Positions 8,345 through 25,438 of a stretch of DNA of 28,740 nt are shown in pieces. This stretch comes from a virus. Under the pieces are notes generated by a model. The model had not been told where the DNA came from and searched no databases. It worked only from the letters and a program-made list of their open reading frames with translations. The DNA is taken from IMG/VR virus record IMGVR_UViG_3300032285_002315, positions 1-28,740 of that record; one strand, given 5' to 3'. Numbering within the stretch: the stretch's first letter is position 1; the number at the start of each line of letters is the position of its first letter. Position numbers and translations under genes: made by a program.

Positions 8345-9295
8345 TTAGATTGTCAGTGATCCCGAACTAGTAAAAATATATGTTCTATATCCATTTGCTA
8401 CGCTTATTGTAGGGCTTCCTGTAGTAGATGTGGCTGGAGAAAAACTATCAGCATAGCGAATAATAACTACACCTTTACCGCCATTACCACCAAAGTAAGC
8501 GCCACCGCCGTAATAAGCTGCACCGCCACCTCCACCACCTGTATAAGGTGTACCATTAGTACCAGGACCGGTTATTGTAGAAGAACCGCCGCCACCGTAG
8601 CCACCTACTCCTGCAGTACCACTATTAACACCGCCACCACCGCCACCACCTGCAAAATACACACTAGAACTTACCACTTGACCTATTGAGTATGTAGTAG
8701 CTTGAGTTGTAGTAATAATAGTGCTAGTTGTACCTACACCACCGTTGCCACCTGCAGTACCACTGGCATCACTTCCTTGTGCGCCGGCACCGCCACCGCC
8801 TCCACCGGAGTTACTTGAGCCGCCGTTGCCACCGCGATTACCTAAACCGCCACTGGCACTAGCTGGTTGTAATCCTGAACCGTAGTGTGTAAGGTCAGCA
8901 CCGTTCCAACTTGCACCGCCGCCCGAACCACCTGATGTCGCATTTGTATATGGACTATAAAATCCTCCAGTACCTCCACCAATAGCTGTAATCGTACTAC
9001 TACCTGAAATAGATGAGTTTGCCCCGTTGTTACCTCCGCCGCCACTTACGCCAGCACCTCCGGCTCCTACTGTTATTGTAATTGCTGATCCAGGTGTCAC
9101 AGAAAACCCAGTGTTTGTTACATATCCACCTGCACCCCCACCACCACAGCCTAAATTAGTTGCGCTTGCGCCGGAGCCGCCGCCTGCTACTACCAAATAT
9201 TCAATAGCAGTAGCAATTAATAATGGATTATTAGCACCGGTACTATTAAAATTCTTAGTACTAAGTTTTTGCAAACTGTGAGTTTTTACAGCCAT
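8345..9295 (-). CDS. Glycine-rich adhesin-like protein (316 aa)
   Basis: It starts at the ATG 9295-9293, overlapping the TAA of the 109-residue gene (TAATG), with GGAG eight bases upstream. The N-terminal 28 residues (MAVKTHSLQKLSTKNF...) are unlike the other glycine-rich genes. At about 32 EYLVVAGGGSGA begins the glycine-rich domain, with GGGGAGGYVTNTG, PGSAITITVGAGG and LQPASASGGLGNRGGNGG; the last recurs in the 309-residue protein as QQPASASGGFGNGGG. After GGKGVVIIRYADSF it has a C-terminal strand block, TTGSPTISVANGYRTYIFTS. Likely a fibre-tip adhesin by analogy with other phage glycine-rich tail proteins. Confidence 0.88.
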   Translation of the reverse strand: MAVKTHSLQKLSTKNFNSTGANNPLLIATAIEYLVVAGGGSGASATNLGCGGGGAGGYVTNTGFSVTPGSAITITVGAGGAGVSGGGGNNGANSSISGSSTITAIGGGTGGFYSPYTNATSGGSGGGASWNGADLTHYGSGLQPASASGGLGNRGGNGGSSNSGGGGGGAGAQGSDASGTAGGNGGVGTTSTIITTTQATTYSIGQVVSSSVYFAGGGGGGGVNSGTAGVGGYGGGGSSTITGPGTNGTPYTGGGGGGAAYYGGGAYFGGNGGKGVVIIRYADSFSPATSTTGSPTISVANGYRTYIFTSSGSLTI

Positions 9296-9633: not shown

Positions 9634-12591
9634 TTATGCTCCCATTAATAAGAATGGGCTTAATGTAACTGATGTTGTACCACTGGTACTAGGTGTTGCA
9701 GAAAAAGTAGGTGAACTTATATCTACCCAATAACTTGCTGTTCCGTCGCTGATATATTCATATAAAACATTAGCTGTTGTATTAAACCATTGGTCGCCCA
9801 ATAAATTACCAGTTGCCGGGGGTGATGTGTCAGAAGTATATGTTAGACTTGTTCCACCTCCTCCACTTCCGGAAACTGCCGCCCAACTTAAATTGCCAGC
9901 GCCATCTGTTTTTAAATAATAGTTGGCTGCTCCGCCACCAATGTATACGTTACCTGCACTACCTAAATTAGTAATACCCGATACTGTTAAACTTGTGAGT
10001 GTACCAACGCTTGTAATATTAGATTGAGTTGCATTTATTACTGTGTTTGCTGAGTTAGCATTACCATATAGATTACCAATAAAGTAATTAGCTGTTGCCG
10101 CATTACCTAAGTTAGCATTTCCGCTAGTAATGTTACCTACTACCGCAAGATTACCAGTTACGTTTGCATAACCACCAATGTTTGCACCAGTGGTTGTAAC
10201 AGTCATTATACCTGTATAACCACCAACAGTGAAGCTTACGTTACCATTAGCGGTAGCAATAAAGACGTTACTAGTACCATTGAATATATATCCAGCACCA
10301 CCCAATCCTGTTAAGTTACTACCGTCACCATAAATATATTGTCCCTTAACTATACCGCTATTAGCGTATACATTACCAGATGTAATGTTAGTAGTAACTG
10401 CTAGATTTCCTAGTGTACCTACGTTTGTGACGTTGTATTGATTTGCTGTGCTTAATGTACCAGTCAATGCACTGGCACCAATTGTACCTGCGTTTGCATA
10501 TACGTTACCAGCAGTGATGTTACCCGTGCCTAATAAAGCAAAACCAGTACTTGTTATATTTGCTACTGTTACTGCATTAACAGTGAATGTAATGTTTGCA
10601 CCGGCTGTTGGAATTCTAATATTACTAGTACCGTTAGCAACTTGTCCGGCAGCATCAATACCACTTAAATAAAATCCATTACCCAAAAAGTAATTGCTGC
10701 CTGCACTGATATTACCTACAGTAGTTAATGTACCTGCTACATTAACGCCCGTACCAGTAATAGTCATTGTATTGTTACCAGCACTATAAACAGATACGTT
10801 GCCGTTCGCTACTGGAATGCTGACATTACTATTACCTAAATAAATTGTGTTGACGTTACCAATATTACTGATTAAGTAACCATCACCTTGTAAGAAGTTT
10901 GCTTTTACTAGATTACCTAAGTTAGCTGTACCAGAGCTAACTAAGTTCATGCCTGTACTGGTGAATGTTGCTACATTAGATACACTTGTTACTGATATTG
11001 TTACGTTACTGTTAGCGGCAACAACTACGTTACTGTTACCATTAACTAAAGAAACTGCTGTTACTGCTGAGATTCCTGATAATGCACTACCGTTACCAAT
11101 AAAGAAATTAGCACGGACATTACCAAAACTATTGAATGTTGTTACTTCACTTGAAACTGTTACGTTACTACCAAATGCGAATTCACTGTTTGAACTGTCC
11201 CAACCCATGAAAGCATCAACAGGTACTGTCGTATAGTAATGTAATAATGTACCACGGTCTTTGCTGTCATTACTTGCTAGTGCCGCACCATTTGCACCAC
11301 CGCCATATTCAATAATTGGGTCTACTACACGTGTTACAGTTGAATTTACTGATGTAGTAGTACCGGAAACTACTAAATTACCGCTTAATGTTAAGTTAGC
11401 ACCAGAGATATCACCCGTTGCTGTTATTGTTCCGTTGCCAAAAATTGTATTAGCTGTTGCGTTGCCAACTGTTAAACCAGTTAATGTACCAACACTTGTG
11501 ATGTTTGGTTGTGCGTTTGTTGTCACTGTTCCGGCAGTTCCGGCAGATACTGAATATGTAGAGTTAGCAACTGTGCCAGTAACATTAGCACCAACTAATG
11601 AACTTAATCCTGAACCGTTACCTATAAATCTTGCCGCAGTTAAATTACCACTTGAAGGCTGGTATTCTAAATCGTGTGCATTACCGTCTACGTACAACGC
11701 ACTATTACCTGTACTAGATACGTATGTTAAAAAGAATGTGCTTGTATCTGTTGAATTTGCAGTTACATTAACAAAATAAGCAACGTTAGCATTGGCTACT
11801 TGCCCAGATACATTAGCTCCGGCAACTGAGTTAGCGGTAGTTGCATAAGCAACAGCACCCGATACATTAGCACCAGCGACTGCGTTTGCTGTTGTTGCGT
11901 AAGTAGCAAGACTTACCGCTCCCATTACGTTAGCACCAGCTACTGCATTAGCAGTTGCCGCATATGTTACTTGACCACTTACGTTAGCACCAGCTACTGC
12001 ATTAGCAGTTGTCGCATATGCGACTGCACCTGATACATTACTACCTTGAATATTACTTAAATTATTACCGCTTCCACTAAAGTAATTTGCTATTACTAGA
12101 TTACCTAGGTTAGCATTACCACTTGATATATTACCAGTAACAGATAGACTAGAAAGAGTACCAACACTTGTGATATTACTTTGTGCGGCAATTGTAATGT
12201 TGCCTGCATAGGCTGCATAGTTTGCATTTGCTACTGTGCCTGTTACATTTGCACCTGCTATGCTAGATAACCCTGCGCCATTTGCAGTTATATTAGTGAC
12301 GGTTAATGTGTTAGAGGTTTTATTAAAAGTAAAATTGGCGCTAGCGCCAAAACTACTTGCATCATTGAATTGAACTTGGGTGTTTGACCCTGCAACACTA
12401 GAAACACCAGCACTAAAATTCCATGCTACACCATTAGCATATAATAAATTGTCTGTTTTTACATAATTAGCAGTTGCGGCGTTACCAAGATTGGCATTTA
12501 GTGCGATGAGGTTTCCGGTAGCTGTAACATTGTTGAATGTATAGTCACCGGTTGCATCTACTACTCTGGGTCTTATTTTTTCTAATGCCAT
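9634..12591 (-). CDS. Long modular tail-fibre-like protein (985 aa)
   Basis: N-terminus MALEKIRPRVVDATGDYTF pairs with those of the 924- and 188-residue proteins. In order: TQVQFND block (about 71-100); NITSVGTLSSLSVTGN (139-154); ATTANAVAGANVSG array (182-267); a YVDGNAHDLEYQPSSGN block (300-316); RVVDPIIE...DAFMGWD module (421-506); several 'GTSN...IP.A.GN..' beta blocks (505-800); further NITSVGTL copies (about 363, 719, 857); a YYLKTDGAGNLSW block (890-903); and a C-terminal GDQWFNTTANVLYEYI tip module (932-947). No cysteine and no coiled coil seen. The composition fits a long beta-repeat shaft with a distal tip, probably trimeric (inference). The start is 20 bases after the preceding stop, with no strong Shine-Dalgarno. 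Confidence 0.92.
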   Translation of the reverse strand: MALEKIRPRVVDATGDYTFNNVTATGNLIALNANLGNAATANYVKTDNLLYANGVAWNFSAGVSSVAGSNTQVQFNDASSFGASANFTFNKTSNTLTVTNITANGAGLSSIAGANVTGTVANANYAAYAGNITIAAQSNITSVGTLSSLSVTGNISSGNANLGNLVIANYFSGSGNNLSNIQGSNVSGAVAYATTANAVAGANVSGQVTYAATANAVAGANVMGAVSLATYATTANAVAGANVSGAVAYATTANSVAGANVSGQVANANVAYFVNVTANSTDTSTFFLTYVSSTGNSALYVDGNAHDLEYQPSSGNLTAARFIGNGSGLSSLVGANVTGTVANSTYSVSAGTAGTVTTNAQPNITSVGTLTGLTVGNATANTIFGNGTITATGDISGANLTLSGNLVVSGTTTSVNSTVTRVVDPIIEYGGGANGAALASNDSKDRGTLLHYYTTVPVDAFMGWDSSNSEFAFGSNVTVSSEVTTFNSFGNVRANFFIGNGSALSGISAVTAVSLVNGNSNVVVAANSNVTISVTSVSNVATFTSTGMNLVSSGTANLGNLVKANFLQGDGYLISNIGNVNTIYLGNSNVSIPVANGNVSVYSAGNNTMTITGTGVNVAGTLTTVGNISAGSNYFLGNGFYLSGIDAAGQVANGTSNIRIPTAGANITFTVNAVTVANITSTGFALLGTGNITAGNVYANAGTIGASALTGTLSTANQYNVTNVGTLGNLAVTTNITSGNVYANSGIVKGQYIYGDGSNLTGLGGAGYIFNGTSNVFIATANGNVSFTVGGYTGIMTVTTTGANIGGYANVTGNLAVVGNITSGNANLGNAATANYFIGNLYGNANSANTVINATQSNITSVGTLTSLTVSGITNLGSAGNVYIGGGAANYYLKTDGAGNLSWAAVSGSGGGGTSLTYTSDTSPPATGNLLGDQWFNTTANVLYEYISDGTASYWVDISSPTFSATPSTSGTTSVTLSPFLLMGA
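11074..11331 (-). repeat. DPIIE/DAFMGWD module copy (985-aa gene)
   Basis: Residues 421-506 carry RVVDPIIEYGG, LASNDSKDRGTLLHYY, DAFMGWDSSNSEFAFGSNV and GNVRANFFIGNGS. This is one of five copies in the window; the others are at 13782-14039, 16278-16511, 18769-19023 and 24038-24292. Confidence 0.9.
11791..12048 (-). repeat. ATTANAVAGANVSG array in the 985-aa gene
   Basis: Residues 182-267 contain tandem units of about 18-21 residues (54-63 bases) with the core A-(T/A)-TAN-(A/S)-VAGANV-(S/M)-G followed by AVAYA, QVTYA or AVSLATYA. The units differ largely at third codon positions. Equivalent arrays are in the 924-residue gene. Confidence 0.9.
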
Positions 12592-12611
12592 TATGGTAAA
12601 CTACTTTTCAA

Positions 12612-15386
12612 TTATTTTTGTGTCTTAACCCAACCCTGTGTACTATTATAATAAACCAATGTAAATGCTGTACGGTTTGTGCTGACTGTCAAGTCTGAGC
12701 TTGCACCTTCAATCTTACCACCGTTTCTTGCAACAGTAATGTTATTTGTACTAGCAGAACCAGTAGCATCAATAATACCAACTTCGTCACCCAAACTTGC
12801 TGTCGACGGTAATGTTAATGTAACTGCGCCACCTGAACTATCAATCAAGTATCTTACACCTGCAATTGCAGTTGAACTTGAGTTAATACCCTGATAAACA
12901 TATCCAAGTGAGCCAGCTGTACCACCATTAATGATTGTAATTTCAACGATAGCGCCGTTTGGTGGAGGATCGCTAAATGTAATAACTGCACCAGTTAAAC
13001 TATAAGAAGACCTTGGTTGAAATACACCACCAATAGCGACTAGTGTATAGTTGATATTGACTGGTGTAGAACTTAGAGTTTTCATTGTCCAGCTACCGTC
13101 ACCAGTATAAGTATCAACACTTAATGTAGTTGAAGGTAGTGCTGACCAACTTAGTCCACCTGATCCGTCTGTCTTTAAGAAGTAGTTTGCACTACCGCCA
13201 GTAATGTGTATGTTTGCAACTGCGCCCAATGCAACGTTACTTGCACCAGTTAAGTTAATTGTACCTGTACTTGTTACACCAGTTAGTGTACCAACACTTG
13301 TAATATTTGGCTGTGCCGCAGTGTAAACTGTACCTGAAACTAATGCATTTGCTACTTGACCTGATACGTTAGCACCAGCTACTGAGTTTGCAGTTGCCGC
13401 AAATGATACTTCACCTGATACGTTAGCACCTGCAACTGCATTAGCTGTTGTTGCATATGTTGCTAAATTAACAGCACCGCTTACATTAGCACCAGCTACT
13501 GAGTTAGCAGTTGTTGCATAAGCAACTGCACCGGTTACGTTTGCACCAGTAATACTTGTTAAAGCACTACCATTACCAATGATGTAACCACCTGTAACAT
13601 TGCCGGTAGTAGTTAAATTACCACTGCCCAAATTTGCATAACCAGCAATATTTACACCAGTTGTTGTAATAGTAACTACGTTTGCAGTACCACCAACACT
13701 TAATGTAATGTTACCGTCAGCAGTTGCAACATTAACATTACTTGTACCGTTTGCAATTTGGTAAGATGTTGAGGCTGAGACTCCAGTTAATTGACTACCA
13801 TTACCCAAAAAGTAACTAGCACGTACATTACCATAACTATTCCAAGTAACAACTTCACTTGTGACTGATACATTGCTACCAAATCCAAATTCTGCATTTG
13901 AGTTATCCCAACCCATAAATGCGTCAATTGCGGCACCTGAATAATAATGCAATAATTGACCTCTATCGTATCCATCATTACTAGCTAATGCACCGCCAGC
14001 AGTATTACCACCTTGTTCAATGATTGGATCTTTTACTCTGAATGTTGTTACGTTAGCATATTCAAAATTGCCAGAAACTGTTAAGTTACCGGTGATTGTA
14101 GAATCGCCGGATACTGTTAAACTTGTTAATGTACCTACACTTGTAATATTTGGCTGAGCCGCAGTATATACAGTACCTGCAATTAGTGCATTAGATACTT
14201 GTCCTGATACATTAGCGCCGGCTACTGAATTAGCGGTTGTTGCGTATGCTACTGCACCTGATACATTTGCACCGGCTACTGCGTTCGCCGTAGTAGCATA
14301 TGTTGCTAAATTGACAGCACCGCTTACATTAGCACCGGCTACTGAATTTGCAGTTGTTGCGTATGCTACTGCGCCGCTGACATTTGCTCCTGCTACTGAA
14401 TTAGCAGTTGCCGCAAACGACACTTCACCTGATACATTAGCACCGGCTACTGAGTTTGCAGTTGTTGCGTATGCGACTGCTCCTGTTACATTTGCACCGG
14501 TTATACTTGATAAACCACTACCATTACCACTAAAGAAATTAGCAGTAGCTAAATTACCTAAATTAGCATTACCGCTAGATATATTACCTGATACTGTTAA
14601 ACTAGTTAATGTACCAACTGATGTGATATTAGGTTGAGCCGCAGTGTAAACTGTACCTGAAACTAATGCATTAGCGACTTGACCTGATACGTTAGCACCG
14701 GCTACACTATTAGCAGTTGTCGCATAAGAGACAGCACCTGAAACGTTAGCACCAGCTACTGCATTTGCAGTTGCCGCATAACTTACTTGACCAGTAACGT
14801 TAGCGCCAGTAATTGATGTTAATCCAGAACCATTTGCAACAATATTGTCTACTGTTAAAGTTTTTGTAGAAACAGTGAAGGTTAAGTTAGCACTACCCGC
14901 TAAGTTAGTACCGTCATTGTATTGAATTTGTGTAGCACTACCACCTACGTTAGCATTACCAGTACCAGCAGTCATTGAGTGCCAGCTTAGTCCACCTGAA
15001 CCGTCAGTCTGTAGTACATATCCAGAACTTCCGCCGCCAATATGTAAGTTTGAAATTGAGCCTAAAGTGACGTTGGCAGTAGTTGTAAAATCAACAACTC
15101 CGGATGAATTGCTTACAGTTAATCCAGTTAAGCTTCCAAGACTTGTAATATTACTCTGTGCGCTAGCAGTAACATTAGTAGCAAGTGTAGCATTACCTAC
15201 AGTTCCTACAACATTTCCGCCCTGAATATTGTAAAGTGCATTGGCGTTGCCACTGAAGAAATTAGCGATTGCCAGATTCCCTAAGTTGGCATTACCGGAA
15301 TTTAAATTTCCCGTTACATTTGCGTTTGCAAACGTGAATGTATCGCTTTGGTCGATACTAAATTGTCTAATTTTTAACAGTGACAT
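12612..15386 (-). CDS. Long modular tail-fibre-like protein (924 aa)
   Basis: N-terminus MSLLKIRQFSIDQSDTFTFA. Then in order: NITSLGSLTGLTVSN; GYVLQTDGSGGLSW (122-135); ATQIQYNDGTNLAGSANLTF (151-170); three ATTANSVAGANVSG arrays (194-241, 297-401, 614-683) separated by QPNITSVGTLTSLTVSGN repeats; the VKDPIIE...DAFMGWD module (450-535); a second LKTDGSGGLSW block (737-747); a TGDG...PPPNGAIVEI module (761-822); and a C-terminal domain (828-924: AIAGVRYLIDSSGGAVTLTL, DEVGIIDATG, VYYNSTQGWVKTQK). That last domain is a recognisable C-terminal block of planktonic phage fibres. A strong Shine-Dalgarno (GAGGG) and a late-promoter-like GATAAATA precede it. Predicted shaft plus tip; function inferred. 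Confidence 0.92.
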   Translation of the reverse strand: MSLLKIRQFSIDQSDTFTFANANVTGNLNSGNANLGNLAIANFFSGNANALYNIQGGNVVGTVGNATLATNVTASAQSNITSLGSLTGLTVSNSSGVVDFTTTANVTLGSISNLHIGGGSSGYVLQTDGSGGLSWHSMTAGTGNANVGGSATQIQYNDGTNLAGSANLTFTVSTKTLTVDNIVANGSGLTSITGANVTGQVSYAATANAVAGANVSGAVSYATTANSVAGANVSGQVANALVSGTVYTAAQPNITSVGTLTSLTVSGNISSGNANLGNLATANFFSGNGSGLSSITGANVTGAVAYATTANSVAGANVSGEVSFAATANSVAGANVSGAVAYATTANSVAGANVSGAVNLATYATTANAVAGANVSGAVAYATTANSVAGANVSGQVSNALIAGTVYTAAQPNITSVGTLTSLTVSGDSTITGNLTVSGNFEYANVTTFRVKDPIIEQGGNTAGGALASNDGYDRGQLLHYYSGAAIDAFMGWDNSNAEFGFGSNVSVTSEVVTWNSYGNVRASYFLGNGSQLTGVSASTSYQIANGTSNVNVATADGNITLSVGGTANVVTITTTGVNIAGYANLGSGNLTTTGNVTGGYIIGNGSALTSITGANVTGAVAYATTANSVAGANVSGAVNLATYATTANAVAGANVSGEVSFAATANSVAGANVSGQVANALVSGTVYTAAQPNITSVGTLTGVTSTGTINLTGASNVALGAVANIHITGGSANYFLKTDGSGGLSWSALPSTTLSVDTYTGDGSWTMKTLSSTPVNINYTLVAIGGVFQPRSSYSLTGAVITFSDPPPNGAIVEITIINGGTAGSLGYVYQGINSSSTAIAGVRYLIDSSGGAVTLTLPSTASLGDEVGIIDATGSASTNNITVARNGGKIEGASSDLTVSTNRTAFTLVYYNSTQGWVKTQK
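13338..13547 (-). repeat. ATTANSVAGANVSG array C in the 924-aa gene
   Basis: Residues 614-683 hold units of 18 and 21 residues, including AVNLATYATTANAVAGANV and EVSFAATANSVAGANV. Plus-strand 13453-13502 matches 14296-14345 in array B over 50 bases with two mismatches, much closer than typical units in these arrays. Confidence 0.9.
13782..14039 (-). repeat. DPIIE/DAFMGWD module copy (924-aa gene)
   Basis: Residues 450-535 carry RVKDPIIEQGG, LASNDGYDRGQLLHYY, DAFMGWDNSNAEFGFGSNV and GNVRASYFLGNGS. It is closest to the 806-residue protein's copy in the sharing of EQGG, RGQLLHYY and GSNVSVT. Confidence 0.9.
14184..14498 (-). repeat. ATTANSVAGANVSG array B in the 924-aa gene
   Basis: Residues 297-401 hold five to six units of 18 or 21 residues, the longest array in the window. 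The order is AVAYA, EVSFA, AVAYA, AVNLATYA, AVAYA, QVSNA between successive GANV(S/T)G cores. Codon changes between units are mainly synonymous. Confidence 0.9.
14664..14807 (-). repeat. ATTANSVAGANVSG array A in the 924-aa gene
   Basis: Residues 194-241 carry two full units and a partial one: GANVTGQVSYAATANAVA, GANVSGAVSYATTANSVA and GANVSGQVANALVSG. It is followed directly by TVYTAAQPNITSVGTLTS, the same exit sequence that follows arrays B and C. Confidence 0.88.
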
Positions 15387-15408
15387 GGTTATCCCTCTTT
15401 ATATCTTG

Positions 15409-15416
15409 TATTTATC
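15409..15416 (-). promoter_or_regulatory. Candidate T4-type late promoter (GATAAATA)
   Basis: The minus strand reads GATAAATA at 15416-15409, in the 44-base gap before the 924-residue gene. It matches the T4 late promoter TATAAATA at seven of eight positions and the NATAAATA form reported for cyanophages. It is followed by GAGGG and the ATG at 15386, leaving room for a short leader. The motif is short and AT-rich, and another copy occurs inside a gene at 25627-25634, so the call rests on its position in one of the largest gaps. Confidence 0.4.
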
Positions 15417-15430
15417 TTAATTTTGGGTTA

Positions 15431-15784
15431 TTACTCGGTGACTTCAATCCAATTCACAGAATCTTCATCCCAACTATAGCGTTTATCGTCTGTAGGCATT
15501 GCAACTGGGGCATCCCACTGACATGTATCTTCATTCAATACCCAGCTGTTGAATGGTTTAGGTGGTATAAAAGCATCACGAACTGAATCGTAAGTGTATC
15601 CTATACCAGCATAATTCTTTCTTAATGGTGTACCACCTAATCTGTGCTCACCACCATATGTGTTATAACTTGTTTGTACAAAAGAACTTGGTTCCCCAAA
15701 CAAACCAGTATCAACTACATCTTGTTCTATAACAAGAACTCTTGTTACAATGTTGTTTTCATCTATTTGTGCAAAATGTGACAT
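15431..15784 (-). CDS. Conserved 117-aa cyanophage-type virion protein
   Basis: The sequence MSHFAQIDENNIVTRVLVIE, then FVQTSYNTYGGEHRLGG, KNYAGIGYTYDSVRDAFIPP, KPFNSWVLNEDTCQWDAP and the C-terminal YSWDEDSVNWIEV is very like a short protein common in T4-like cyanophages and other aquatic myoviruses, next to fibre genes. It is a non-repeat, tryptophan- and tyrosine-rich protein, unlike its Ala/Asn/Thr-rich neighbours. The start is one base after the TAA of the 393-residue gene. Its order between fibre genes suggests a small tail protein or an assembly factor; the exact role is unknown. Confidence 0.9.
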   Translation of the reverse strand: MSHFAQIDENNIVTRVLVIEQDVVDTGLFGEPSSFVQTSYNTYGGEHRLGGTPLRKNYAGIGYTYDSVRDAFIPPKPFNSWVLNEDTCQWDAPVAMPTDDKRYSWDEDSVNWIEVTE

Positions 15785-15785
15785 T

Positions 15786-16967
15786 TTAACCTATTCCTAA
15801 TGTTGTAACTTCAACTAATGCTCCGTTTGGTGGTGCAGAACTGAATGTTAGAACTGCTCCACTAACAGTATATGAACTCTTTGGCTGCATAATACCCTGT
15901 ACTACAGCAAAAGTAAAATTTTTATTTGACGGTGTTGCAGACAACGTAAATGCAACAGTTGTTCCGTCTCCGGTAAACTCATCTACTGCGCTACTTAATG
16001 ATGCGCTATCTGCGCCCCAGCTTAGATTACCAGCTCCGTCTGTTTTTAATACATACCCAGAACTTCCACCAGTAATATGTAGATTACTAATACTTCCCAA
16101 ACTTATATTAGCACCGCTAAATGCTGTATTTCCAGATACGCTTAAATTAACTAATGTACCTGTACTTGTAATATTTGGTTGTGCGGCTGTTATAACTGTA
16201 CCTGCTGTTGCAGAATTCAAGTTTGCTACTTGAGTAGTTGAATTAACAGTGAATGGCGCTGTACCAGTAGTTGCAGTAGATATAAAAGTCAATCCTTTTA
16301 TATTACCATATGTACCGCTAAACACTCCGTTAGTTTCAGTACCATCTACATAGTATTCAAATGCTAGGCTATCATTAGAAAATCCAAAGAATGCATGTTT
16401 ATCAGTTGTCTTAAAGTAATGTACATGTATACCAATGTCTTTACCATCATCACTTGTTAATGGTGCAAGATTAGCTTGAGTATGTAACTCAATTAGCGAA
16501 TCAACATAACTTACATTATTACTGTTAACTGTGATAGTAGTACCAGTAACAGTTAAATTACCAGATAATGTAGTATCACCTGATACAGTTAAACTAGTTA
16601 ATGTACCAACACTAGTGATATTGGGCTGTGCTGCCGTTCTTAGTGTACCGTAAAAATAATTTGCACTTACAATATTGGCACCACTAATTGTACCGCCTGT
16701 ACCGGTCGTAAACGTTGCATTGTTTGCGGCTAAATTTCCAACTACAGTTAATAGATTTGTAGCACTATTAAATGTAAGATTAGCACTAGCACCTAATACA
16801 TTGGCGCTGTTAAATTGAATATAAGTGTTACTACCGGCAGCCGCCGCAACTGCACCACCACCGGATATTTGACTATCAACGTAATTTTTAGTAGCCGCAT
16901 CGGATGCAATTGAAGGATCAGAAATATTCTTCAGTTGCGTTGGGGATGGGAATGAGAGCGTTGCCAT
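15786..16967 (-). CDS. Modular fibre protein (393 aa)
   Basis: N-terminus MATLSFPSPTQLKNISDPSI and then ASDAATKNYVDSQIS (21-35), the 'DAATKxYVD' block common in phage fibres. A TYIQFNS...GASANLTF block follows (48-66). NITSVGTLTSLTVSGD (116-131) and NITSTGTLVNLSVSGN (265-280) flank a diverged DPIIE-type module (153-230: VDSLIELHT...DDGKDIGIHVHYF...HAFFGFSNDS). Next is NLHITGGSSGYVLKTDGAGN (294-313). It ends on a TGDG...APPNGALVEVTTLGIG module (332-393). It thus has nearly the same module set as the 924-residue protein but without the ATTANSVAGANVSG arrays. It begins one base after the 806-residue gene's TAA, with no clear Shine-Dalgarno, so coupled translation is likely. Confidence 0.9.
   Translation of the reverse strand: MATLSFPSPTQLKNISDPSIASDAATKNYVDSQISGGGAVAAAAGSNTYIQFNSANVLGASANLTFNSATNLLTVVGNLAANNATFTTGTGGTISGANIVSANYFYGTLRTAAQPNITSVGTLTSLTVSGDTTLSGNLTVTGTTITVNSNNVSYVDSLIELHTQANLAPLTSDDGKDIGIHVHYFKTTDKHAFFGFSNDSLAFEYYVDGTETNGVFSGTYGNIKGLTFISTATTGTAPFTVNSTTQVANLNSATAGTVITAAQPNITSTGTLVNLSVSGNTAFSGANISLGSISNLHITGGSSGYVLKTDGAGNLSWGADSASLSSAVDEFTGDGTTVAFTLSATPSNKNFTFAVVQGIMQPKSSYTVSGAVLTFSSAPPNGALVEVTTLGIG
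16278..16511 (-). repeat. Diverged DPIIE/DAFMGWD module copy (393-aa gene)
   Basis: Residues 153-230 keep the frame of the module: SYVDSLIELH for DPIIE, LTSDDGKDIGIHVHYF for LASNDxKDRGxLLHYY, HAFFGFSND for DAFMGWDSSN, and GTYGNIKGLTFIS for the GNVRAxFF end. It is the most divergent of five. Confidence 0.7.
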
Positions 16968-16968
16968 T

Positions 16969-19389
16969 TTATGATGTAATTATAATAGATGCTACTTGAC
17001 TAAAATTAGTAAAGCCCCAGACTTTATAAGCCTGCCCAGAAATAGTAGTGCTGCCAGTAACGTCCGGTGTATCTACAATATCTGATCCCAAGAATATATG
17101 TTTAAATGTATGTGATGCTGTAGTTGGTGTTGCCATCCAAAGATAATCTGTTGAAGTAGTATTGGTATTAGCATATGTAGTGCCAATAACGATATTACTT
17201 GTTCCGTGACTATCGCTTGTAGTAAACGTAGGCACACTACTACTGCTTGTTGTTTTGTAGAATAATGGATAATATTTAGTAGCCGCAGTAACTGTACCAT
17301 TTACAGTAGCAGTCATTGTTCTGCTGCCAGCACCATATTGACCTGCACCATAGTAATCACTAGAAGTGATAGTATAATTCATTGTACTATCTAATGAAGT
17401 GCTAGTTCCGCTTGTTGCACCAGAACTTGTTAATGTACCAGATATACTATTAGCAGTGTTAGCATACGATACATTACCACTTGCTACTGTTGCTCCGCTT
17501 GTTGTAGTTGCATTCCAGTTAAATGTTTGATTCAAGCTCCAGTATGGGACTGATGAGCTTGGGAAAGTTCCACTCAATGCTGTTACGTTGAATGGTACAG
17601 GTTGATTGTTTGTTAAGGTTGTTCCGGTAGATGTATAAACACCTCTATTTGTAGTTAAGCTTACTGATACTGCATCTGTTGCATTAGTTTGTGTATTGGC
17701 TGCTGTTAAATATGAACTTGGAATCGTATATGTTCCATTTGCAGTGATGTTCAATGCCAATAGATTTGCACCAGTGACGTTACTACTACCAATATTAATA
17801 TAATCAGTACTCTTTACACTGAAAGTTGCGTTTGCTAGACTAAATGTTACGTTAACATTCTGTGTGTTTACTGTACCAGCAATGTAATTTGCATAAGCAT
17901 TCTTGCTAGTACCGCCACCATACCAAACATCTGTTGTGCTTAGTGATACAGGGCCTAACTGTGCAATTGTATATGTACCACCTGGGTAAGCTGGATCAGT
18001 ATAGCTAACTGATACATCAATTGCAGAACCAGCTACGATATTAGAGATAGTAGATACGATTGCGATTCCACCGGATGATTGTAATGCAGAGCCTGCACTT
18101 ACCCAACTTAGATTACCTGAACCGTCAGTACTTAATACATACCCACTTGTTCCACCAGTAACGTGTAAATTACTAACTGCACCAAGACTTACGTTAGGTC
18201 CAGTAAAGTTTACATTACCAGAGACACTTAAACTTGATAACGTTCCTACACTTGTAATATTTGGTTGACTACTTGATGTAACTGTTCCTGCTGTAGTTGC
18301 ACTTGATGCCGCTACATTAGTTAATAAACCGCCATCAGCAATGATTTTATCAACTGATAGTGTTTTAGTTGTTGAATTGAATGTTAGATTTGCACTACCG
18401 GCTAAATTAGTACCATCATTATATTGAATCTGTGTAGCACTGCCACCTACATTAGCATTACCGCTTCCAGAAGATGCCGGAACCCAACTTAAATTACCTG
18501 TCCCGTCTGTGCTTAATACATATCCTGTGCCGCCGCCTGTAATCTTAATGTTAGCTACTGCATTTAAGTTGATGGGACCAGCTACAGTTAAGCTAGATAA
18601 TGTTCCTAGACTTGTTACATTTGGCTGACTTGCTGTTGTTAATGTGCCTGACAAATAAGTAGCACTTACTAGATTACCACCAGACAATGAGTTTGCGCCG
18701 CCCATTGTAGTATCTAGCAATGTGCCGACTGACGTTATGTTTGGTTGCGCTGATGCTGTTACTGTTGTGGCAGAGCCACTTAGATTTCCTAAGAATACGT
18801 TAGCACGTACATTACCTAATTGATTATATGTAACAACTTCATTTGTAACTGATACATTGCTACCAAAACTGAATTCACCGTTACTATTATCCCAACCCAT
18901 GAACGCATCAACGGGTGCTGTTGTATAGTAGTGTAATAACTGACCACGATCCTTTAAGTCATTGCTTGCTAAGGGTGTGCCATCAACTGCGCCACCTTGT
19001 TCAATAATCGGGTCTTTGATGTTTAGTGTAGAAACGTTAGCGTATACTAAGCTTCCATTTACGATTAGATTACCAGAAAGTGTAGCGTTGTTACCAGTAA
19101 AGTCACCGTTAACTGATAAAGATGTAAGTGTACCGACACTTGTAATATTGGGTTGACTTGCTGTTGTAAGTGTACCTTGATAGTAATTAGCAATTACTAG
19201 ATTACCCAAACTAGCATTTAGTGCTGTAACATTCCCAGAACTAAAAATATTACCCTTTACACCAATGCCACCGGCTACTTTTAATGCACCTGTTACGTTA
19301 CTGGTAGCGGCATCTTGACCATCGATGTCCAACACCGTATCAATTTTTGCGTTACCGTATATTCTTGTACCTGAACGTAAGAGTGCCAT
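16969..19389 (-). CDS. Chimeric fibre protein with Ig-like C-terminal half (806 aa)
   Basis: The N-terminus MALLRSGTRIYGNAKIDTVL shares GTRIYG(N/D)A with the 1588-residue protein. The first 435 residues are window-typical: four NITSVGTL-type repeats (80, 216, 257, 376), the DPIIE...DAFMGWD module (123-207), IQYNDGTNLAGSANLTF (321-337) and two GYVLSTDGxGNLSW blocks. From about 440 the protein changes to Ser/Thr-rich beta sequence without these repeats. It ends TASHTFKHIFLGSDIVD...GQAYKVWGFTNFSQVASIII, a C-terminal block known from other phage structural proteins. The second half is probably the distal domain; Ig-like is a guess from strand pattern. Weak Shine-Dalgarno; a 26-base gap separates it from the previous stop. 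Confidence 0.9.
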   Translation of the reverse strand: MALLRSGTRIYGNAKIDTVLDIDGQDAATSNVTGALKVAGGIGVKGNIFSSGNVTALNASLGNLVIANYYQGTLTTASQPNITSVGTLTSLSVNGDFTGNNATLSGNLIVNGSLVYANVSTLNIKDPIIEQGGAVDGTPLASNDLKDRGQLLHYYTTAPVDAFMGWDNSNGEFSFGSNVSVTNEVVTYNQLGNVRANVFLGNLSGSATTVTASAQPNITSVGTLLDTTMGGANSLSGGNLVSATYLSGTLTTASQPNVTSLGTLSSLTVAGPINLNAVANIKITGGGTGYVLSTDGTGNLSWVPASSGSGNANVGGSATQIQYNDGTNLAGSANLTFNSTTKTLSVDKIIADGGLLTNVAASSATTAGTVTSSSQPNITSVGTLSSLSVSGNVNFTGPNVSLGAVSNLHVTGGTSGYVLSTDGSGNLSWVSAGSALQSSGGIAIVSTISNIVAGSAIDVSVSYTDPAYPGGTYTIAQLGPVSLSTTDVWYGGGTSKNAYANYIAGTVNTQNVNVTFSLANATFSVKSTDYINIGSSNVTGANLLALNITANGTYTIPSSYLTAANTQTNATDAVSVSLTTNRGVYTSTGTTLTNNQPVPFNVTALSGTFPSSSVPYWSLNQTFNWNATTTSGATVASGNVSYANTANSISGTLTSSGATSGTSTSLDSTMNYTITSSDYYGAGQYGAGSRTMTATVNGTVTAATKYYPLFYKTTSSSSVPTFTTSDSHGTSNIVIGTTYANTNTTSTDYLWMATPTTASHTFKHIFLGSDIVDTPDVTGSTTISGQAYKVWGFTNFSQVASIIITS
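18769..19023 (-). repeat. DPIIE/DAFMGWD module copy (806-aa gene)
   Basis: Residues 123-207 carry IKDPIIEQGG, LASNDLKDRGQLLHYY, DAFMGWDNSNGEFSFGSNV and LGNVRANVFLGN. Confidence 0.9.
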
Positions 19390-19415
19390 GCTGTTTTTTT
19401 ACCTTACTTATATAC

Positions 19416-19649
19416 TTATGATATTCCAGATACTTCGTCAAAAACTCCGGAAATTTTCAGTACACCCGTATTTAGCTGTTGCATGGCCTTACTATTTTCG
19501 GTGCCTGTGTATTCATCCAAGACATGAGCAAACACCCCGTTAGGGGTGATGCTTATATTATCTTGGCTGATTTCGCTGAACCCTATACTGTTGTCTTTGT
19601 CACAGTATAGGTTCCCTGTGTTACTCAATCTTGCCGCAATTTTAGCCAT
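19416..19649 (-). CDS. 77-aa small protein, scaffold of the LamG protein
   Basis: MAKIAARLSNTGNLYCDKDN starts after a clear GGAG Shine-Dalgarno five bases upstream. The protein has two recognisable ends: I-(A/G)-ARL near residue 4, and AMQQLNTGVLKISGVFDEV at the C-terminus, with VLDE between. The 322-residue LamG protein four genes upstream in the window order (24470-25438) has the same ends (IGARLTQDGTL, GELDE, AMKQFKTGELLVENEFDEV) but with about 240 residues of LamG domain inserted between GELDE and AMKQ. This gene is therefore the minimal form of that scaffold. It lies between two large fibre genes. Function unknown; perhaps a connector or attachment protein. Confidence 0.85.
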   Translation of the reverse strand: MAKIAARLSNTGNLYCDKDNSIGFSEISQDNISITPNGVFAHVLDEYTGTENSKAMQQLNTGVLKISGVFDEVSGIS

Positions 19650-19660
19650 AACATCTCCAA

Positions 19661-22600
19661 TTAATTGAAGATGAAGTCTAAACTACCTGATGTTGAGTTG
19701 AATTGAATGTAAGCCGCGCTATCTGTGTTACCGCTACCAACTGCAAAACCAACTGCTTTACCAGCATAAATGTTGCCTTCAGCAGAAATACCACCTGCAG
19801 TAGTAATTGTACCAGTAACTGCATCAGTTGCGTCTGTTGTACCTTCAGCAACGATGTTAGCAGTAGCAGTAATGTTTTGACCTTGAATATTACCTGTTGC
19901 AGTAATATAACCAGTTACATTAGCACCTGTACCAGTGATTTGAACAACTGTAGTTCCACCAGAAACCATGTTGATATTACCATCAGCAACTGGGATACTT
20001 ACATTGCTTGTACCATTTACAATTCTACTTGTATCATTAGATACAAAGCTTAGGTTACCGGCACCGTCTGTTTGAATGATTTGTCCAGCAGTACCACCAG
20101 AGATATAAACATTACCAATTGCATTTAAGTTTGATGTTCCTGCAACTGTTAAGCTTGTCAATGTACCAACTGTAGTAATATTACTTTGGTTATTAGAAGA
20201 TGTTGTTAATTTACCAGACAAGTAAGTAGCTGATACTAAGTTTCCACCATCAACATTACCAGCAGAAAGATTACCAGTAATATTAGCTGTAGCGTCTACG
20301 TTAATATTATGTACATTAGCTGTGTAAGTAGTAAATGTATTTGAGCTTGCATCAAATGTCAAATTAGCACTGTCTGTTAATCTGTCGGTCATTACTTCAG
20401 CAAATGTGATACGACCGCCTGTTAATGCATCAACAACAACGTTTCCTGCATTTAAAGTAGAAGTAACGTTAGCGTTACCAGTAACTGTTAATAGATTACC
20501 ACCAGAGAATGTCAAATTAGCGTTGTTTACTAATTTACCACTTGCTCCAGCAAATGTAACATATGTGTCAGTTAATGTAGAAACAAATACATTTGATGTT
20601 TCAACTTTACCAGTAATGTTTGCATTACCAGTAACTGTTAGTACATTACCTCCAGTGAATGTTAGATTAGCATTATTAATTAACTTACCACTTGCTCCTG
20701 CAAATGTAACATATGTATCAGTTAATGTAGAAACAAATACGTTTGATGTTTCAACTTTACCAGTAATGTTTGCATTACCGTCAACAGTGAAGACATTACC
20801 TGTTGGGTTAAATGTAAACTTAGAACTTGCCGCAAAGTTGTTACCGCTATTGTACTGAATATAAGTATCTAAACCAGCAGCTTGTTGCAAGTCCCATGCT
20901 GTACCGTTTGCATAATATAGATTATCTGTTAAGATACCAGCTGATGGATTAGAATTATTAATTGTAATGTTACCATCAGATGTTAAGCTAGTCAATGTAC
21001 CTAAACTTGTAATGTTTGGCTGACTTGCTGTTTCAATTGTACCATATAAGTGGTCTGATTTGACCGCACCACCTGTAGTTAATCCAACAAGCAAGTTTCC
21101 ACTTACATATTCTAGTTTAGTACCATCATTACTTAAATCACCATATGTGGTTACTGATTTAACTGTACCATCACCAGTACCAACTCCTGTTGCTGTAAAT
21201 TGAGTTCCTGGATTGCTATTAGCTGCACCTATTGTTGTGAAATCTGAACTACCTGTTGTAACGATTTCGTACTTTGTACCAGATGAGATTGCATTAGCAT
21301 TTATTGTAGAACCATAATGATCCATTACGTTTGAAGCAAACTGAATAGAACCATTTGCGCCAGCAACCTTAATGTTACCAGAAATGTTACCAGAAACGTT
21401 ACCTTGTAAGTCACCGATGAATTTACCAGAACCTAATGTAACATTACCTTCTGAGAACACAACACCACCAAAGTTAGCGTTGAAAGCAATCAAGTTCCCT
21501 GACAATTCTAAGTTAACACCAGTTGCATTACCAATATTAGGTGATACAAATGTTGCACTATCAGCAACCTTGATGTTACCACTCATATCATATGCTAATG
21601 TAGTTGTGTTAATCTTAGTACTGAATACTGTACCATTTAATATTAAACCAAGATTGGTGTTAGCTGTATAAGTACCTGCACCAGAGAACTGACTGAATAT
21701 AATATCAGATGTATTTAAAGTAGCAACTACTTCAGTCTGTACCCAACCTGTATCACCTTGTGTGTTACCATTAACAACGAATACGAAATCACCACCCGCA
21801 AATTCTGCGGCTGAGTTAGAATCGTCAGAACGTGTTAGTGTATTAGCACCTGAATCATAGTCATAGATACCGTTTTGTGCTTTTGTTGTTTGGTCTTTAA
21901 CAAGAACACGGTCACCGTTTTGTACAGTGTATCCATCAATGATTAATGGATTAGCTAAACTCTCAAATACATGAGAAATGCCGTTGTATCCTGCAATATT
22001 AGTTTTAGATGCAACTGCAACTGGCATATGAACGTGTAAACCTTGTGCAACACTATCAACATAACCTCTTGTTGCCGCATCTGTTGCATTCTGTGGAGCA
22101 CCAACGTTTGTGATTGCAACACCGCTAGCGTCAATTACACCAGAACCTGTTGGAAGTAGAACAACGTCATTGTTTCCTGCACCAGCTTTAACTGTAATGT
22201 CACCAGAAACAGCTTGAACTGTATTACCTAATAGATGACTATTAGCTTGAATGTTACCGCCTGCAACAACGTTTGTTGTTGCGTTTACGTTAGTAGAATT
22301 TACTGTTGTGATATTCCCAGTAGTTGCTTCAATAACGTTTGCACCGGTAATATTTGCGGCTCCTGCCATTGCAATATTACCAGAAACTCCCAAGTTACCT
22401 GCATTATATGTTAGGTCTGCACTGTCAACTAATTTGTGGTCACCGTTTGAGAATACTAAGCGAGTATTGCCTAAACTTCTAACTGTTGCATTTTGAACGT
22501 TAGCATTTGCATTTAATTGCAAGTTATCAGTTGTAAGTGTGTTAGATGCTCTATCAAAATTCAAGTTTGCACTTGCAGTGAAATTGTTTGATCCATTGTT

Positions 22601-24427
22601 AAACTGAATATCACCATTAGCACCTTGTGCTTCTTGTAAGTCCCAAGCTACACCGTTTGCATATCGCAAATTATCTGTTAAGATGTTTGTTGCCGCAACA
22701 TTACCTGTAACAGTCAATACTGTACCGTCAAATGTTAAGTTTGCACTATCTTTTATTTCTTTACTTGAACCAGCAAATGTTACACGACCTGCTGTTAGAC
22801 TTGTTACAACAACATTAGATGCATTAGCAGTTCCGGACATTGTTGCATTAGGAACGTTAAGTGTAGCACTACTGAAAGTAAATGATGAATCATCAGTCAA
22901 TGACTTGTCTGCATCAACGAATGGAACACGTGTTGATGTTAAGCTTGTAACAATAACTTCGGCTGCATTTGCAGTACCAGTCAGTGTTGCATTAGTGACT
23001 GACAATGTATTGCTTGTTGAATTGAATGTTAAGTTTGCACTGTCAATTAAAGCTTTTCCAGAGTTAGCGAAAGGAATACGTGTATCACCTAAGCTAGTAA
23101 CAATGACATTGGCTGCATTTGCAGTACCAGACATTGTAACATTATCAACACTTAATGTTTTAGTGAGGTCTACGTATTGTAAATTAGCACTTCTAGTTAA
23201 TCTGCTGTCACCGTTTAAGAAAGGAACAGTATGCTCTGCTAAGTCTCTGATTCTTGCACTACTTAAATTAGCAGTACCAAGATTACCTGTGCCAGTTGTT
23301 GTTAGGTCTACAAAGTGTGCAGAACCAGAAGCTTCAACATTAGCATTAGGTAATACTAAATCACCTGAATCTACTGTTAAATCACCGCTAGTATTAACTG
23401 TAACATTGCCACCTGCAGTCTCAAGTGTTACACCATTATTGTCAACTGTAACACGATTAGTATTGTCAAAATTTAACTGAGAATAATTTGCTGAGTATAC
23501 TTCAACACCAAAACCAGATTTGTCGTTAACTACGTTAACTGAGTTTTGCTTGTCAAGGTTTAAGTCACCCATAATGTTAGCGTCACCAGTATTGCCGTTT
23601 AATTCAATATTAGCACCGCCAATGTTTACTGTGTTACTTGTTTTATTAAATGTGAAACCACCTGTTGCGTTTGAAGTGTTACTGTCATTGAAAACAACAT
23701 CAGTATTTGCACCCGGAGCACTTGTAGAACCGCTAACGTTAGCATGTAGTGTTCCACCTACCCATAAACTACCAGCAACACCTACACCACCTGCAACAAT
23801 TAATGCACCGGATGTAGTGCTTGTTGATGATGCAGTGTTTGTTAAATTAACAATACCATTTGCGTTTAAGTCCGCAATATTTGATGTTCCGGAAACTGTT
23901 AAACTTGTTTGTGTGCCTAATAATGTGATATTGCTTTGTGTTGCACCTGTAACTGTACCTGCATAGTTAGCATAGTTAGCTTGGGCGACCCAACCAGTAA
24001 CATTAGCACCAGTAATATTTGCTAATAAGTCACCTTGACCAATGAAGTGATATGCTTTGACGTTACCGTAATCACCTGTTGCAATCGTAATATTACCGTC
24101 TTTTCCCGCGCCTTCGGTTGCTACTGCACCAAATTCAAACTGACCATTGGTTGTATGCCAGCCCATGTATGCTGTTGTGTCAGCACTACCATTCCAGTAG
24201 TGCATTAAAATACCACGTTCTTTATTGTCTTGTGTTGTTAGTGCCGCGCCTGCTGCTCCACCACCAAGTTCAAAGATTGGATCTTCTACTCTAGTAACTG
24301 TACTGTCAACAGAAGTTGTTGTTCCATTAACTACTAAGTTACCACTAATTGTAATATTACCTACGGATAGTGTCTGGTCAACTGTTGCGTCACCGTAAAT
24401 TCTAGTACCGTCTTTTAATTTTGCCAT
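19661..24427 (-). CDS. Very long modular tail-fibre protein (1588 aa)
   Basis: N-terminus MAKLKDGTRIYGDATVDQTL. In order: DPIFE...YMGWHTTN module (46-130); GANVTG and NITLLGTQTSLTVSG (140-180); a TSGALIVAGGVGVAGSLWVG block (205-224); about four 50-residue units of type VTSLGDTRIPF...DSANLTF (370-577) and one more at 638-684; the fibre module NATDAATRGYVDSVAQGLHV...NGDRVLVKDQTTKAQNGIY... NGNTQGDTGWVQT (779-898), known from many phage fibres; a SSDFTTIGAAN...GTQFTATGVGTGDGT block (1060-1088); a near-perfect duplicated 50-residue unit (1217-1316) plus a diverged third; late NITTVGTLTSLTVAG (1416-1430) and TDGAGNLSF (1453-1461) blocks. The C-terminus AAYIQFNSTSGSLDFIFN resembles the 175-residue protein's end. 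SD AAGGA nine bases upstream. Probably the longest fibre shaft here. Confidence 0.92.
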   Translation of the reverse strand: MAKLKDGTRIYGDATVDQTLSVGNITISGNLVVNGTTTSVDSTVTRVEDPIFELGGGAAGAALTTQDNKERGILMHYWNGSADTTAYMGWHTTNGQFEFGAVATEGAGKDGNITIATGDYGNVKAYHFIGQGDLLANITGANVTGWVAQANYANYAGTVTGATQSNITLLGTQTSLTVSGTSNIADLNANGIVNLTNTASSTSTTSGALIVAGGVGVAGSLWVGGTLHANVSGSTSAPGANTDVVFNDSNTSNATGGFTFNKTSNTVNIGGANIELNGNTGDANIMGDLNLDKQNSVNVVNDKSGFGVEVYSANYSQLNFDNTNRVTVDNNGVTLETAGGNVTVNTSGDLTVDSGDLVLPNANVEASGSAHFVDLTTTGTGNLGTANLSSARIRDLAEHTVPFLNGDSRLTRSANLQYVDLTKTLSVDNVTMSGTANAANVIVTSLGDTRIPFANSGKALIDSANLTFNSTSNTLSVTNATLTGTANAAEVIVTSLTSTRVPFVDADKSLTDDSSFTFSSATLNVPNATMSGTANASNVVVTSLTAGRVTFAGSSKEIKDSANLTFDGTVLTVTGNVAATNILTDNLRYANGVAWDLQEAQGANGDIQFNNGSNNFTASANLNFDRASNTLTTDNLQLNANANVQNATVRSLGNTRLVFSNGDHKLVDSADLTYNAGNLGVSGNIAMAGAANITGANVIEATTGNITTVNSTNVNATTNVVAGGNIQANSHLLGNTVQAVSGDITVKAGAGNNDVVLLPTGSGVIDASGVAITNVGAPQNATDAATRGYVDSVAQGLHVHMPVAVASKTNIAGYNGISHVFESLANPLIIDGYTVQNGDRVLVKDQTTKAQNGIYDYDSGANTLTRSDDSNSAAEFAGGDFVFVVNGNTQGDTGWVQTEVVATLNTSDIIFSQFSGAGTYTANTNLGLILNGTVFSTKINTTTLAYDMSGNIKVADSATFVSPNIGNATGVNLELSGNLIAFNANFGGVVFSEGNVTLGSGKFIGDLQGNVSGNISGNIKVAGANGSIQFASNVMDHYGSTINANAISSGTKYEIVTTGSSDFTTIGAANSNPGTQFTATGVGTGDGTVKSVTTYGDLSNDGTKLEYVSGNLLVGLTTGGAVKSDHLYGTIETASQPNITSLGTLTSLTSDGNITINNSNPSAGILTDNLYYANGTAWDLQQAAGLDTYIQYNSGNNFAASSKFTFNPTGNVFTVDGNANITGKVETSNVFVSTLTDTYVTFAGASGKLINNANLTFTGGNVLTVTGNANITGKVETSNVFVSTLTDTYVTFAGASGKLVNNANLTFSGGNLLTVTGNANVTSTLNAGNVVVDALTGGRITFAEVMTDRLTDSANLTFDASSNTFTTYTANVHNINVDATANITGNLSAGNVDGGNLVSATYLSGKLTTSSNNQSNITTVGTLTSLTVAGTSNLNAIGNVYISGGTAGQIIQTDGAGNLSFVSNDTSRIVNGTSNVSIPVADGNINMVSGGTTVVQITGTGANVTGYITATGNIQGQNITATANIVAEGTTDATDAVTGTITTAGGISAEGNIYAGKAVGFAVGSGNTDSAAYIQFNSTSGSLDFIFN
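20318..20779 (-). repeat. Tandem 150-bp units in the 1588-aa gene
   Basis: Units start at residues 1217, 1267 and 1317 (20779, 20629 and 20479). The first two encode GNANITGKVETSNVFVSTLT then DTYVTFAGASGKL(I/V)NNANLTF almost identically. Their DNA includes a stretch of about 80 bases with two mismatches. The third (to about 20318) is diverged (VVVDALTGGRITFAEVMTDR). The first pair looks like a fairly recent in-frame duplication. Confidence 0.93.
22376..23320 (-). repeat. Older 50-aa units of the same family in the 1588-aa gene
   Basis: Residues 370-577 and 638-684 contain five diverged copies of the unit: (V/A)-x-V-x-(T/R)-S-L...R-(I/V/L)-(P/T/V)-F...K-x-L-x-D-S-A-N/D-L-T-(F/Y). Examples are VIVTSLGDTRIPFANSGKAL, VIVTSLTSTRVPFVDADKSL and VVVTSLTAGRVTFAGSSKEI. 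With the three units at 20318-20779 this makes eight copies in one protein. Confidence 0.82.
24038..24292 (-). repeat. DPIIE/DAFMGWD module copy (1588-aa gene)
   Basis: Residues 46-130 carry RVEDPIFELGG, LTTQDNKERGILMHYW, TAYMGWHTTNGQFEFG and GNVKAYHFIGQGD. Here the module lies near the N-terminus, not in mid-protein as in the other copies. Confidence 0.85.
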
Positions 24428-24469: not shown

Positions 24470-25438
24470 TTACACTAATTGACCCGGAATAGGTTCATCA
24501 TCTAACACTTCATCAAATTCATTTTCTACTAGCAATTCACCAGTTTTAAACTGTTTCATTGCGCCGTTATAAGTTGTTGATGATGGAGTTTGAGTGTGCC
24601 AAGTCGCACCTCCTACATTTGTAACTGACTGAGTACTATTGGAGCTATCAGTTAACATACTACCGCTAGCTACAAAATTAAGTAGTAGCACTGTACTTGA
24701 TCCAGAAATAGCACTTACATGTATTCCTGCACTTTGTGTTTTTGTTAATGGATTTCTTGGTGTACTGAAGTTACCAGTGTAAACAGCAACACCTTTAACA
24801 ATACGAACTTGTGTAATATAGCCAGAGAAGTATCCATCTTTTACAAGATTAACTGCACCTTGACCACCGTCACTTAAATCAATTTCACCACCAATTGCTA
24901 AAGCACGTGAAGTAGTTGAATTATAAGGACTACTATCTGTAATTTTGCTTCTACCATTGATATAAACTACTACATTACCGCTATGCTTAACTAATGCAAT
25001 ATGATTCCATGTATTCATATTGAAAGAATATGCTCCAGAACCAATTGGGGCTCCAGAACCTTTCCAATAGTAAACTTGTCCATTCATAATTTCAACGTTG
25101 TCTCCGTCTGGAAAACACCATAGACGTTGATATGCTGTTGAAGTTGAATAGAACCAGCCTTCAATAGTGAAATCATTAGTGCCAAATTGAAAATCACCAC
25201 TACCGGACAATGACAAGTATTGACTTGTACCGTTTAACTCAACTGAACCACCTGATGGGGCTTGCTGAGATAACGTGATTTCGTCTAGTTCACCGGCAAA
25301 GATATTGGTTTTTGTGATTTTGTGAGCAGATCCAGTAACTTCATCAAAGCCGGTTTCCAAATCACCAGCAGTAGTACCGGCAGTTTGAAGTGTACCATCT
25401 TGTGTTAACCTTGCTCCAATTGTTCTTGGTTGTGACAT
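24470..25438 (-). CDS. LamG (concanavalin A-like) domain virion protein (322 aa)
   Basis: The N-terminus MSQPRTIGARLTQDGTLQTA leads to LETGFDEV and FAGELDE (up to about residue 53). Residues about 63-255 are a LamG/concanavalin A-like lectin fold: SVELNGTSQYLSLSGSGDFQ, TNDFTIEGWFY, NTWNHIALVKHSGNVVVYIN, GYITQVRIVKGVAVYTGNF and STPRNPLT. The C-terminus NGAMKQFKTGELLVENEFDE is the partner half of the small scaffold seen alone in the 77-residue protein. LamG domains bind carbohydrate or protein ligands, so receptor binding at the cell surface is plausible (inference). Shine-Dalgarno AGGAT sits about six bases before the ATG. A 42-base gap follows its stop, containing a weak five-base-pair inverted repeat. 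Confidence 0.9.
   Translation of the reverse strand: MSQPRTIGARLTQDGTLQTAGTTAGDLETGFDEVTGSAHKITKTNIFAGELDEITLSQQAPSGGSVELNGTSQYLSLSGSGDFQFGTNDFTIEGWFYSTSTAYQRLWCFPDGDNVEIMNGQVYYWKGSGAPIGSGAYSFNMNTWNHIALVKHSGNVVVYINGRSKITDSSPYNSTTSRALAIGGEIDLSDGGQGAVNLVKDGYFSGYITQVRIVKGVAVYTGNFSTPRNPLTKTQSAGIHVSAISGSSTVLLLNFVASGSMLTDSSNSTQSVTNVGGATWHTQTPSSTTYNGAMKQFKTGELLVENEFDEVLDDEPIPGQLV

Follow-up and report, generated by a model that had tools for sequence, protein, structure and literature searches.

A shuffled, uncatalogued domain in five adjacent phage fibre genes and its probable role as a bead within the fibre shaft

T4 gp34 contains a triple beta-helix, in which the hydrogen bonds run solely between monomers, interrupted by the beta-prisms P3 and P4, each with one antiparallel sheet per chain (PDB 4uxg, 4uxe, 5nxh; PMC5537660). 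Bd2133, a mosaic adhesive trimer (MAT) of Bdellovibrio, is a modular trimeric bacterial fibre with diversity in its C-terminal tips (PDB 8ond; PMC10769870). In cyanophages, the 'structural protein' of PHROG 697 (S-TIM4 ORF108, Syn33_099) is a single large protein of about 1890-2240 aa encoded directly upstream of gp13, as in the four cyanophage records inspected; S-TIM4 ORF108 changes during host adaptation (PMC6224464). Annotations of such cyanophage proteins include 'YadA domain-containing structural protein', a name taken from the YadA-type trimeric autotransporter adhesins.

Here, we describe a protein module in a 28.7-kb virus record (the window, meaning the whole stretch of DNA analysed), which consists almost entirely of a single minus-strand block of fibre-like genes. 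Because several related contigs encode the T4-type capsid protein gp23, the window probably comes from a T4-like phage; a megablast search of its bases 1-25000 against phage records gave no match. Five successive long fibre genes each contain one copy of the module, in frame, on the minus strand and at the coordinates given in the initial annotation. Like P3 and P4 of gp34, the module is predicted to punctuate an extended shaft with one compact antiparallel sheet per chain. The fibres that carry it would be modular trimers, as Bd2133 is, although the module is mostly internal, whereas the bacterial fibre varies at its C-terminal tips. The PHROG 697 proteins contain the module, as the window fibres do. 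They hold two or three copies in one polypeptide (aa 549-664 and 1222-1333 in S-TIM4 ORF108), whereas in the window each copy has a gene of its own, and these five genes, unequal in length, have mainly the module and the shaft repeats in common. The window proteins differ from the YadA adhesins in having no match to any YadA family of Pfam, either at E <= 10 in the five proteins themselves or at E <= 0.1 in 88 module copies.

Five module copies in successive fibre genes

Profiles built from four copies were used to search the whole window, in six frames, for the copy that had been omitted. Each of the five blocks reported in the initial annotation was recovered by the profile of the other four (Table 1), while the best stretch elsewhere in the six frames reached E 0.08 or worse, giving neither a sixth nor a degenerate copy in the window. 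The leave-one-out E-values of the copies, between 3e-20 and 1e-44 as against 0.08 or worse elsewhere, mean that the window holds exactly five copies and that their resemblance is not due to chance. The limits and motif first given for the block can be refined. In the alignment, the unit that is conserved extends some 20 residues further upstream, to T(L/I)(S/T)GNLxVxG, and the quoted motif DPIIE...DAFMGWD reads DSLIE...HAFFGFS in the 393-aa fibre, whose copy is a divergent subtype with 29-36% identity to the others in the window. In the 1588-aa fibre, the module has the lead TISGNLVVNGTTT, and a short insertion precedes its last strand. Module depth along the five proteins ranges from 3% to 58%, with variable distances to either end; the mapped positions bear out the earlier description of four copies in the first half or middle of their proteins and of one, in the 1588-aa fibre, near the N-terminus.

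Table 1. Positions of fibre genes, module copies and neighbouring genes in the window.
Feature	Window position	Strand	Module (aa)	Block as first noted (aa)	Basis or remark
Fibre gene, 1588 aa, one copy	19661..24427	-			ORF; syntenic orthologue in related contig
Full module, 1588-aa fibre	24032..24358	-	24-132	46-130	Leave-one-out HMM E 2.7e-30; five-copy alignment
Fibre gene, 806 aa, one copy	16969..19389	-			ORF; orthologue 89% identical over 806 aa
Full module, 806-aa fibre	18769..19089	-	101-207	123-207	Leave-one-out HMM E 3.2e-43; alignment
Fibre gene, 393 aa, one copy	15786..16967	-			ORF; orthologue of 328 aa
Divergent module, 393-aa fibre	16269..16577	-	131-233	153-230	Leave-one-out HMM E 3.3e-20; whole-protein model
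Fibre gene, 924 aa, one copy	12612..15386	-			ORF; orthologue 74% identical, full length
Full module, 924-aa fibre	13785..14105	-	428-534	450-535	Leave-one-out HMM E 3.5e-40; alignment
Fibre gene, 985 aa, one copy	9634..12591	-			ORF; orthologue of 1272 aa
Full module, 985-aa fibre	11077..11397	-	399-505	421-506	Leave-one-out HMM E 1e-44; AlphaFold2
Glycine-rich protein	4608..5537	-			Pfam Gly_rich_2
Glycine-rich protein	6124..7113	-			Pfam Gly_rich_2
Gene with 'DEFTGDGTTVAFTLSATPSNKNFTFAVVQGIMQPKSSY'-type segment	7116..8318	-			Shared with the 393-aa and 924-aa fibres
Glycine-rich protein	8345..9295	-			Pfam Gly_rich_2
322-aa protein	24470..25438	-			Laminin_G_3, E 2e-13
Gene cut by window end	27434..28738	-			

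The only additional ORF within the run of five genes encodes 117 aa and lies between the 924-aa and 393-aa fibre genes. A segment of the 'DEFTGDGTTVAFTLSATPSNKNFTFAVVQGIMQPKSSY' type occurs toward the C-terminus of the 393-aa and 924-aa fibres and also in a third gene, and it matches Pfam DUF4183 weakly in two of these three. The second half of the 1588-aa protein contains the segments 'GLHVHMPVAVASKTNI...GDRVLVKDQTTKAQNGIY' and 'KYEIVTTGSSDFTTIGAANSNPGTQFTATG', which we take to resemble recurring phage modules. The three glycine-rich proteins are candidate fibre tips, and the 322-aa protein that adjoins the fibre genes has a concanavalin A-like lectin domain and, judging by this match, is likely to be sugar-binding. 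The gene truncated at the end of the window lacks a strong counterpart in a related contig; there, the orthologue of its neighbour adjoins a fibre of 1990 aa that bears two modules.

Predicted fold and structural analogues

All structure predictions were made for single chains. The copy of the 985-aa fibre (window 11068-11433) was modelled with AlphaFold2 from 85 sequences, with three rows from annotated phage records left out, and reached a mean pLDDT of 93.8 and a pTM of 0.78. The model has strands at residues 60-67, 71-79, 84-94 and 97-103 which, because they succeed one another along the chain, would form a single compact antiparallel sheet. Residues 1-59 and 104-122 contain no intrachain strands and consist of extended chain with two short helical turns. 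The same four strands appear in a model of the whole 393-aa protein (178-185, 189-197, 202-212 and 215-220; pLDDT about 85-96), the rest of which is poorly predicted (whole-protein mean pLDDT 64.5). The initial annotation had opposed a self-standing fold to an extended continuation of the repeat, and the compact four-stranded sheet between strandless flanks, found in both copies modelled, speaks for the former. Extended flanks without intrachain strands are what an inter-chain-bonded shaft is expected to give in a single-chain model; they could partly reflect the absent partner chains or, in the 393-aa fibre, a shallow alignment.

A profile search against PDB sequences found nothing significant, and the module profile had no significant match in T4 gp34-gp37 (gp37 nearly whole). 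Foldseek returned no PDB match at E <= 0.001, its top rows being T4 gp34 and then unrelated kinases. With VIA-align, the only PDB entries at Z >= 2 among the matches listed for the 985-aa fibre model were T4 gp34 (residues ~898-1025, Z 3.0) and the Mu fibre (Z 2.2). The top match of the 393-aa model was Bd2133, weakly and through its second beta-helix domain (Z 2.5), followed by an unrelated transposase complex (2.1). As common arrangements can reach a Z of 3 by chance, these matches are a lead and not a proof, and a known fold for the module is neither shown nor excluded by them. The matched region of gp34 comprises the triple beta-helix and its first beta-prism, P3, which has five strands as against the four predicted here; sequence similarity between the two is undetectable. 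The trimer clamp proposed in the initial annotation is compatible with this best structural analogy, the beads P3 and P4 of gp34.

Among predicted viral structures in BFVD, 17 models matched at E <= 0.001; where named they are tail-fibre or uncharacterised proteins, and two are labelled for other domains. Proteins of Micromonas and Ostreococcus viruses gave weak fold matches (E roughly 2e-3 to 2e-2), which hint that algal viruses may have comparable fibre domains but are too weak to support a claim.

Distribution, orthologues and cassette exchange

Searches of the five window proteins and 88 module copies against Pfam and NCBIfam found no convincing domain over the module. The initial annotation had allowed that a well-characterised family might account for the block, and no such family in Pfam, NCBIfam or PDB sequences claims it. 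The profile of PHROG 697, an uncharacterised 'structural protein', was matched by all 88 copies, the module of the 985-aa fibre aligning to profile positions 1245-1340 (E 3.5e-21). Several families of virion proteins are matched as well, baseplate-wedge/fibre connectors among them. PHROG 697 is classed as 'head and packaging' though its members include large fibre-like module proteins, and the label is probably misleading.

The module was found by tblastn in 101 cyanophage records, at less than 60% identity. A scan of IMG/VR gave at least 79 module loci, and an iterated profile collected 169 copies, some of them overlapping, in 86 sequences. Related contigs carry 2-9 copies each. No match was found in plasmids, and a search of bacterial genomes produced just two MAG contigs, possibly phage contigs, among 128 pattern matches. 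Two forms exist: a long form, as in the window, and a short form without most of the loop GAALASNDxK. The short form extends to the tail fibre of a roseophage and to huge phages. Most copies lie inside the protein, the median of their mid-positions being 0.45 in complete ORFs; 14 of the 169 copies lie within 60 residues of the C-terminus, and for these a tip role is possible. The module is an uncatalogued (in Pfam and NCBIfam) yet widespread fibre building block, which phages copy and swap between fibres. The conservation across five paralogues to which the initial annotation had drawn attention is not peculiar to this phage; it stems from a shuffled module that many phage contigs share.

In a related 83-kb contig, all five genes recur with their order unchanged. 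Four of the copies are 85-93% identical to their orthologues and 38-62% identical among themselves, so that the duplications predate the split from the related contig. Between orthologues, identity within the module exceeds that in the rest of the protein in three genes (0.90 vs 0.79, 0.93 vs 0.78 and 0.86 vs 0.62), and the two are about equal in the 806-aa fibre (0.87 vs 0.89). In the four retained pairs, dN of the module (0.04-0.10) is well below dS (0.49-1.0), which indicates purifying selection on the module.

The idea of general conservation does not extend to the 393-aa fibre, whose module is conserved less than any other part: compared with the 328-aa orthologue (L086 8578-9564), identity is about 82% outside the module and 33% inside. 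The nearest relative of this cassette is found in another contig (L023, 60%), and that of the orthologue's cassette is a copy in the relative's own genome (76%). These sequence comparisons show a natural cassette exchange involving the 393-aa fibre, a clean example of fibre mosaicism. As the exchanged stretch takes in some flanking shaft, the unit that moves may be larger than the module alone.

Role of the module within the fibre

From the models and the gp34 analogy, we consider it reasonably probable that the module is an autonomous domain of about 80-100 residues with a structural job, forming a trimeric bead in a beta-helical shaft. Each of the five fibre proteins, which would be trimeric, has the module once; every chain would contribute a four-stranded antiparallel sheet, and three copies would pack round the fibre axis as a beta-prism-like bead. 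This bead would interrupt a thin beta-helical shaft of Ala/Asn/Thr/Gly repeats, whose strands would pair between chains only. Most likely, its job would be to hold the three chains in register, to stabilise the trimer and to set bead spacing and stiffness. A bead of this kind would leave the shaft strandless in a single-chain model, place the domain mostly inside the protein and tolerate drift at exposed positions. Since it would fold alone, and its edges join simple repeats, the module could readily be duplicated and recombined from one fibre gene to another.

Residue conservation, scored over 85 family members, bears on whether the module might instead bind a ligand, as the initial annotation had suggested from its E, H-YY, GW and EF residues. 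The near-invariant positions are G18, L20, V22, G24, D38, D59 and G61; these Gly, Asp and aliphatic residues look like turn and core residues, and the alternating mean hydrophobicity of the strand positions is consistent with one face being buried, whether inside the domain or in a trimer. At H65, 29 of the 59 long forms have His and others R, Q, E or W, while E or K predominates in the short forms; among the long forms, W78 varies between W, Y and F. The proposed ligand residues thus drift across the family and give no support to a dedicated ligand site; receptor-binding sites of the lectin type can themselves be variable, and the drift is compatible with binding. A lateral receptor- or glycan-binding domain, presenting three binding faces on the side of the fibre and gaining avidity along it, would make sense of a compact fold bearing the aromatics Y66, Y67, W78 and F85, and the fibre clusters of related marine phages (cyano- and pelagimyophages) are regarded as host-recognition clusters (PMC7029224). 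We nevertheless regard it as unlikely, given also that in three of the five orthologue pairs the module has diverged less than the remaining protein and in a fourth about as much, unlike a fast-evolving binding site. A mutation reported for S-TIM4 under host adaptation (PMC6224464), at position 580 of ORF108, lies inside the first module copy. We set this change, T580A, aside as functional evidence and keep it as a lead only, because its numbering disagrees with the deposited sequence, in which residue 580 is Asp and the nearest Thr residues are 577 and 584.

The differing depths of the module in five fibres encoded side by side, and the match of some relatives to baseplate-wedge/fibre connector families, would also suit a joint or branch point, either a flexible hinge or a place where another fibre or a fibre-assembly protein docks. 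This is quite improbable in our view: a depth of 3% to 58% leaves no fixed distance to either end, the domain is predicted to be compact, without a low-confidence hinge, and no partner gene was identified. That the copies persist mainly as homology promoting exchange between fibre genes, with no structural need for them, would agree with the cassette swap in the 393-aa fibre and with the intra-gene recombination between repeats hypothesised for S-TIM4 ORF108 (PMC6224464). Purifying selection in the four retained pairs and the preservation of the same strands at about 36% identity call for a reason at the protein level, and make such a recombination anchor very improbable. A side-binding role is possible, and in its most far-reaching form the module would be a 'plug-in' that aquatic phage fibres use as standard: an unnamed fold, folding independently, copied as often as nine times in one phage and passed as a cassette among unrelated phages, whose variable lateral surface would help to set host range and give several alternative side-binding fibres. 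We hold this extension to be quite improbable.

Because the module is absent from Pfam and NCBIfam though present in the fibre and structural proteins of very many aquatic phages, naming it would aid the annotation of proteins now called 'uncharacterised' or given doubtful labels ('YadA', 'head and packaging'). Predicted with confidence where the rest of the fibre resists modelling, it can also serve as a landmark, both in describing how fibres are built and in following how their genes recombine. Set beside the known systems, the module is a real, uncatalogued and shuffled fibre domain of a known kind, most likely the intra-fibre bead, and not a new system or mechanism.
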